Source of the DNA: Thermalbibacter longus
GTDB lineage: Bacteria; Chloroflexota; Chloroflexia; Thermomicrobiales; Thermomicrobiaceae
Assembly (NCBI RefSeq): GCF_023806485.1
Contig: NZ_JAMSLR010000003.1
Location: 124,001-188,000, forward strand
Reading direction: 5' to 3'
DNA: 64,000 nt
This document shows positions 21,545 through 23,026 of the stretch, piece by piece. The notes beneath the pieces were generated by a model. That model was not told the origin of the DNA. It saw only the letters and a list, made by a program, of their open reading frames with translations, and did not search any database. Numbering within the stretch: the first letter of the stretch is position 1; every line of letters begins with the position of its first letter. The translations under genes and the position numbers were made by a program.

Positions 21545-22900
21545 TCAGACCTGCTCGGCCGCCTTGCGGGCGGCGATGAGCAAGGGATCCCAGACCGGCG
21601 AGAAGGGCGGGGCGTAGGCGAGATCCAGGTACATGAACTCGTCGACCCGCATCCCGGCGTGCAGCGCCGCCGCGACCACGTCGATCCGCTTGCCGGCGCC
21701 CGGGCCGCCGACGATCTGCGCGCCGAGTAGCCGGCCGCTCCCCTTCTCGGCCAGCAGCTTGACCACCATCCGCGCGGAGTCGGGGTAGTAGCGCGCTCGC
21801 GTGCGGTCCTCGATCCGGGCGACGCCGTACTCGAAGCCGAGCGCCTGAGCCTCGCGCTCGCTCAGCCCCGTGCGGGCGACCTCGGTCTGGTTGAACTTGG
21901 TGATGGCAGTGCCGACGACGCCTGGGAAGCGGGCGTAGCCACCACCGAGGTTGATGCCGCAGATCCGGCCCTGCTTATTGGCGGTGGTGCCGAGCGGGAT
22001 GTACGCTGGTCGCCGGCTCACCAGATGGAAGGTCTCTGCGCAGTCGCCGGCTGCCCACACGCCCGGGATACCAGTGCGCATCCGGTCGTCGATCCGCACG
22101 GCGCCGCTCTCGCCGAGCGGGAGGCCGGCCTCGGCCGCCAGCTCGCTGCGCGGCTGTACCCCTACCCCGAGGACGACCAGGTCAGCCGGGAGCGTCCGCC
22201 GGTCGGTCTCCACGGCTCGTACCTGGCCGCCGTCCGCGTGGAAGCCGGTCACGCGCTCTTCGAGATAGACCTTCACCCCCGCTTCGCGGAGGGCCGCCGA
22301 GACGAGCGCGCCCATGTCCGCGTCGAGCGTCCCCATCACCTCCGAGCCCAGCTCGACTAGCGAGACGTCCAGCCCGCGGGCGACGAAGGCTTCGGCCATC
22401 TCGATGCCGATGTAACCACCACCGACGATCACCGCCCGCTGCGGGCGCTCGTCCTCCACAATCTGGCGCAGGAGCAGGCCATCCGCCAGCGTCGCGACGC
22501 CATAGATCCCCCGGCTACGGGCGCCGGGTACCTCCAGCCACCGTGGGCCGGCGCCGGTCGCGTAGACGAGCTGGTCGAACGGCTCACGGTAGGTCGCGCC
22601 GTCCTCCAGGCGGCGCACGGTGACTGCACGCGCCGCGAGGTCGATAGCGACGACCTCTTGACCGGTACGGACATCGATGCCGCGGCGGCGGTGCTCCGCG
22701 GGCGAGCGGGCGATCAGCTCGTCTTCGTCGTCGACCAGACCGGCGACGTAATACGGGATGCCTCAGGCGGAGTAGGAGGTGTGCTGCCCACGCTCGAAGG
22801 CGATGATCTCCAGGTCGTCGCGCATCCGCCGGGCCTGCGCGGCCGCGCTCATCCCAGCCGCGTCGCCCCCGACAATGATCAGCCGCTCCTTCGTCGCCAT
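21545..22900 (-). CDS. CoA-disulfide reductase/NADH oxidase-like flavoprotein, probable selenoprotein
   Basis: 451 residues if codon 46 (TGA, 22763-22765) is read as selenocysteine. The family uses FAD and NAD(P)H and a single redox-active cysteine near residue 43 to reduce CoA disulfide, persulfides or oxygen. Visible: FAD site IVGGDAAGMSAA (about residues 9-20), SYSA-[Sec]-GIPYYVAGLVDD, the NAD(P)H site VGGGYIGIEMAEAF (about 157), the second FAD motif GVWAAGDCAE, and the C-terminal dimerisation end YLDLAYAPPFSPVWDPL. TGA stands exactly where the catalytic Cys belongs and the frame is intact on both sides. The ATG at 22900 has GGAGAGGGA upstream. An automatic caller would start at 22618 and lose the FAD site. 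A sequencing error or pseudogene is the alternative. Confidence 0.88.
22729..22748 (-). promoter_or_regulatory. Candidate bacterial SECIS stem-loop
   Basis: Read on the minus strand, CGTCG (22748-22744) plus CC pairs with GG plus CGACG (22733-22729), with a single bulged U at 22734. The apical loop is GGUCU (22741-22737), 21 bases after the TGA. Bacterial SECIS elements place a short stem with G or GU at the start of its loop about 16-37 bases downstream of UGA. The E. coli fdhF element has the same GGUCU loop and one bulged U, although there the bulge is on the 5' side. Confidence 0.7.
22763..22765 (-). other. In-frame TGA, probable selenocysteine codon 46
   Basis: The minus strand reads TCC GCC TGA GGC ATC CCG. 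Cys-containing relatives have S-x-x-C-G-[IM]-P at this place. A single base change from TGC/TGT to TGA explains the difference, and no frameshift or other stop occurs in the remaining 450 codons. Confidence 0.85.
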
Positions 22901-23026
22901 CTGCCGGTCCCTCTCCGGCTATCCGCACACGATCGCATCTTCGGCCGCCATCCTACCATGCGTGCGGGCACTCAGGCTGGGCGAAGCTGCTCCCTGCCCT
23001 CGACCGGGCGCCAGCGTGAGCGAGCG

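Follow-up and report, generated by a model that had tools for sequence, protein, structure and literature searches.

The genome of Thermalbibacter longus almost certainly encodes a selenoprotein, a flavoprotein resembling CoA-disulfide reductases and probably recycling thiol compounds, in which UGA codon 46, at the catalytic site, is read as selenocysteine (Sec). The gene is real and intact. It lies in the window, that is, the whole 64,000-nucleotide stretch analysed (contig NZ_JAMSLR010000003.1, positions 124,001 to 188,000), which comes from a 3.63 Mb assembly that is 99.9% complete. Judging from sequence comparison, actual Sec insertion at residue 46 is very likely, because the TGA falls on the catalytic Cys column of related enzymes, the genome carries the Sec machinery, the codon recurs in homologues, the hairpin that follows it is conserved, and its apical CCGGUCUGG is common to two formate dehydrogenase genes. 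The features of the locus are:

21545..22900, reverse strand: selenoprotein gene, 451 aa (translation; Pfam, TIGR03385 and PDB matches)
22763..22765, reverse strand: UGA codon 46, predicted Sec at the catalytic Cys position (alignment to Cys enzymes; 80 homologous loci)
22729..22748, reverse strand: bSECIS-like hairpin CGUCGCCGGUCUGGUCGACG, 14 nt 3' of the UGA (conservation, formate dehydrogenase likeness, fold)
22908..22916, reverse strand: probable ribosome binding site GGAGAGGGA, purine-rich, 7 nt upstream of ATG 22900 (read from sequence)

The UGA codon occupies the catalytic Cys position of a flavoprotein

Translation from ATG 22900 to 21545 yielded 451 residues with a single internal stop, at residue 46 (TGA at 22765-22763), in the context HTSYSA*GIPYYVAG. 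A preliminary description of this DNA had already read the frame as open apart from this one codon, and had pointed out that the standard code leaves a truncated frame from 22618. Under table 11, the sole long frame of the region is indeed GTG 22618-21545, for a 357-aa product missing both the catalytic residue and the N-terminus that binds FAD.

In Pfam, the read-through protein matches Pyr_redox_2 at residues 6-295 (218.6 bits) and the dimerisation domain Pyr_redox_dim at residues 332-436 (74.4 bits); beyond the dimerisation domain the chain stops at residue 451, and there is no Pfam match to a rhodanese domain. The best curated models are those of CoA-disulfide reductases (CoADR), TIGR03385 (440.7 bits, E 5.5e-132, below the cut-off of 578.8) and PRK09564/NF007123 (423.7, below the cut-off of 458), both matched over their full length, and the Strep NADH oxidase model scored 228 against a cut-off of 600. 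The predicted product is a FAD/NAD(P)-dependent pyridine nucleotide-disulfide oxidoreductase, CoA-disulfide-reductase-like and without a rhodanese domain.

The best solved relatives in the PDB are 6ruz, named 'NADH oxidase' (E 1e-114), and the CoADR 4fx9 (E 4e-96), which we take to be from Thermus thermophilus and Pyrococcus horikoshii, respectively. Codon 46 aligns to the catalytic Cys of both, so the proposal that the TGA lies on the Cys column of CoA-disulfide reductases holds for solved Cys enzymes as well as for homologues. The P. horikoshii CoADR (4fx9, 5l1n) and the T. thermophilus NADH oxidase resemble the window protein in their full-length homology and in their FAD, NAD and dimerisation domains, but they carry a catalytic Cys and no UGA in the column where the window gene has UGA/Sec. 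The flavoprotein core is also common to Npsr/CoADR-Rhd (6pfz, 3icr, 3nt6), although Npsr, unlike the window protein, carries a rhodanese domain at its C-terminus (PMC7969121). The U-G-x-P motif that goes with TIGR03385/COG0446 homology is present, here as U-G-I-P.

The gene order is MurT/GatD, selenoprotein gene, RsmG, Dxs (names taken from ORF translations), which looks like a housekeeping neighbourhood, and no obvious shared neighbour emerged when the ORFs around Sec relatives from other phyla were listed; gene context therefore gives no clue to the substrate. In Bacterium HR32, whose contig is 99% identical, about 120 additional bases separate rsmG from the selenoprotein gene (L022 447-618 versus 22961-23013 in the window).

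T. longus carries the selenocysteine machinery

The Sec machinery that the earlier reading presupposed was found in full, each component scoring over its cut-off: tRNA-Sec with anticodon TCA (C1:652036-652128, 75.3 bits), selA (C23:321579, 531 bits), selB (C12:353944, 346 bits including a second piece) and selD (L018, C1:375586-376518, 376 bits). Two formate dehydrogenase-like alpha genes contain an in-frame TGA in the context ARIUHSSTVPGLG (L133, C1:300189-300974; L134, C80:66174-66932), named by similarity since the pieces fall below the curated TIGR01591 cut-off. With tRNA-Sec, selA, selB and selD present and active-site UGA codons in SelD and both formate dehydrogenases, T. longus appears to use selenocysteine regularly.

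The selD gene is itself a selenoprotein gene, with an in-frame TGA in ASCAGUAGK. The stretch 3' of this UGA differs, being without a CCGGUCUGG-type loop.

A hairpin after the UGA is conserved among Sec genes

The hairpin has the form CGUCG-CC-GGUCU-GG-U-CGACG, with the loop GGUCU at 22737-22741. All five outer pairs were kept in the same register in 28 of 32 distinct Sec genes versus 8.1 expected, counts that ignore gene relatedness, and in 7 of 71 Cys genes. For the expectation, codons were exchanged synonymously according to the codon use of the gene concerned; among 2000 sets the maximum was 16, and none (0/2000) reached 28. Covariation was 0.211 versus 0.140 in shuffles (0/500 as high), and stem pairs vary on both sides, the basal C-G becoming U-A in 10 sequences. 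The evidence for the hairpin is comparative, because the window gene, taken singly, folds no better than shuffled sequence (z about +1 over 50-80 nt, -1.5 over the 22-nt core) and retains all five pairs in 38% of its synonymous recodings. An Rfam search of the window at 21-24 kb returned no relevant RNA family.

Three long read-through frames of the genome have an apical CCGGUCUGG 16-19 nt past the UGA, namely the window gene and the two formate dehydrogenase genes, in both of which the distance is 16 nt. The apical loop of Escherichia coli fdhF is likewise GGUCU. Taken alone, the pattern is hardly selective genome-wide (17 matches for CCGGUCUGG after TGA versus 12 for a reversed control, with the other 14 of the 17 outside long read-through frames), and it is informative only in combination with an open frame. 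All three genes encode Gly-Leu at CCGGUCUGG, so their likeness may be partly coding-driven.

TGA recurs in homologues and alternates only with Cys codons

A scan for homologues, limited to a single genome for each species, yielded 80 loci, at which the codon aligned to position 46 is TGA in 32, TGC or TGT in 48 and another stop in none (0/80); three of the 32 TGA carriers belong to the same genus. With all homologues pooled, TGA occupied codon 46 in 37 of 110, the remainder having TGC/TGT only. The codon is TGA in Bacterium HR32, an independent assembly with 99% identity, and in two further genomes of the genus (90% identity), close relatives being where the preliminary description had proposed to look for it. 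It is also TGA in many Geobacteraceae, Desulfuromonadaceae and Syntrophaceae, and a survey of 158 genomes of the class added two further TGA genes, one in the same family (G125) and one in the same order (G104). Plasmid records held homologues of <60% identity only.

Compared with the 90%-identical relatives, codons 1-45 have dN 0.01-0.03 and dS 0.38-0.55, and the part after the TGA has dN 0.06-0.07, with dS 0.19-0.55 across both sides. As estimated from these substitution rates, purifying selection acts on both sides of the UGA.

These data bear on three other ways to read the codon. The standard code stops the frame at codon 46, and a truncated pseudogene or a sequencing error would make the TGA a real or an artefactual stop; this, like a frame open by chance, seems highly improbable, since the identical TGA occurs in independent assemblies and other species, selection acts on either side of it, and TGA alternates with Cys codons only. 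The preliminary description had itself raised a read-level error at 22763-22765, which the independent assembly and the other genomes of the genus exclude, and scattered stops in relatives, of which there were none, with no second stop in any of the 110 homologues. Initiation at the internal GTG 22618 has in its favour that it gives the longest table-11 ORF, but the product would be without its FAD-binding N-terminus as well as the catalytic residue, and the dN and dS given above point to strong purifying selection on codons 1-45; this is the least credible of the three. A near-cognate tRNA could in principle insert Cys or Trp at the UGA; such read-through is very unlikely in a genome with a genuine tRNA-Sec and SelA/B/D, for a UGA that occupies a redox position, as Sec usually does, and is followed by a hairpin kept in most Sec and few Cys genes.

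Sec and Cys versions exchange within one bacterial family

Genus g5, of the same family as T. longus, has Cys versions of the enzyme. Across the survey, selA was present in 119 of 158 genomes, including the g5 genomes that carry the Cys gene, so Cys in g5 is not due to loss of the machinery. A quickly built tree of 110 proteins called for 9 changes of the Sec/Cys label, of which the starred branches force at least 5. The T. longus genus formed its own Sec clade (99), and the Sec gene of G125 was sister to the g5 Cys clade (99). As read from this tree, the distribution fits repeated Sec/Cys exchange, which has been proposed in general (PMC1794560). We consider it possible, though rather doubtful, that the Thermomicrobiaceae enzyme gained Sec separately from the deltaproteobacterial forms, with an apical loop of the type found in the host's own formate dehydrogenase SECIS, and that Sec/Cys replacement despite selA in both lineages would stem from a different substrate or oxidant rather than from a lost machinery.

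The two Thermomicrobiota Sec versions that the class survey added, from the same family (L107) and the same order (L112), are 57% and 54% identical, respectively, and form long branches in the tree.

Proposed catalytic cycle and candidate substrates

By analogy with the Cys enzymes, from which we infer the catalytic cycle, NAD(P)H would reduce FAD, which would then reduce the residue-46 centre. The selenolate of residue 46 would attack CoA disulfide or CoA-bound sulfane sulfur, and the cycle would pass through a Sec-S-CoA selenenylsulfide, replacing the usual Cys-S-S-CoA. With scores below the strict CoA-disulfide reductase cut-offs, CoA disulfide, CoA persulfide or polysulfide, peroxide and O2 are all candidate acceptors. 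Relatives reduce persulfide or polysulfide (PMC7969121). The main substrate is somewhat more probably than not CoA disulfide or CoA-bound sulfane sulfur.

It is nonetheless quite conceivable, if not the reading we would choose, that the main job of this selenoprotein is NADH oxidase/peroxidase activity or reduction of free polysulfide, and not reduction of CoA disulfide or CoA persulfide. The best solved relative, 6ruz, bears the name 'NADH oxidase', as do entries in published selenoprotein lists; the window protein falls under the strict CoADR cut-offs; and below 75 °C the CoADR of P. horikoshii shows little activity with CoA disulfide (PMC6026696). Against this, the closest models are those of CoADR (TIGR03385, PRK09564), the Strep NADH oxidase model is far off, and the protein has no Npsr-like rhodanese domain.

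Relation to known selenoproteins

The family is already on record. An 'NADH oxidase' was among 25 selenoprotein families described in 2006, from Geobacter metallireducens (PMC1794560), one sequence of the family was found in the GOS metagenome under PRK09564 (PMC2398784), and later entries are 'FAD-dependent oxidoreductase (CoA-disulfide reductase, NADH oxidase)' (WP_011365774.1; PMC9312934) and, in a 2026 review, 'FAD-dependent oxidoreductase (CoA-disulfide reductase)', with TIGR03385 and the motif UGxP (PMC13188914). The preliminary description had called the protein a probable new selenoprotein, which is right for this member but not for the kind. Its interpretation, Sec at the catalytic Cys of a CoA-disulfide-reductase-like flavoprotein, is supported by the alignment to the Cys column, the machinery, the recurrence of the codon and the lack of scattered stops.

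The Sec 'NADH oxidase' of G. metallireducens (for example, WP_011365774.1) belongs to the same flavoprotein family, with UGA at the catalytic Cys and U-G-x-P, and Geobacteraceae relatives with TGA at the same codon are 58-61% identical to the window protein. The window gene differs in belonging to another phylum, Thermomicrobiota, and in the apical loop of its hairpin, which is GGUCU versus the CGGGUU or AAGGUU types of Geobacteraceae/Syntrophaceae. The literature searched, the main texts of mostly open-access papers, contained no mention of the family in Thermomicrobiota or Chloroflexota. What is added here is the spread of the family into Thermomicrobiota, with Sec/Cys exchange inside one bacterial family. 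The host range of a rare selenoprotein family now extends to Thermomicrobiota, and an annotation is corrected that would otherwise drop the catalytic residue along with the N-terminal region. The occurrence of Sec and Cys versions in one bacterial family, both in genomes with selA, offers a natural test of selenium's benefit in a single-residue redox flavoenzyme.

A Syntrophaceae-type clade of eight loci (L031, L042, L049, L053, L055, L056, L065 and L089) has U-S-I-P instead of U-G-I-P, so the published 'UGxP' motif is not kept across the whole family.
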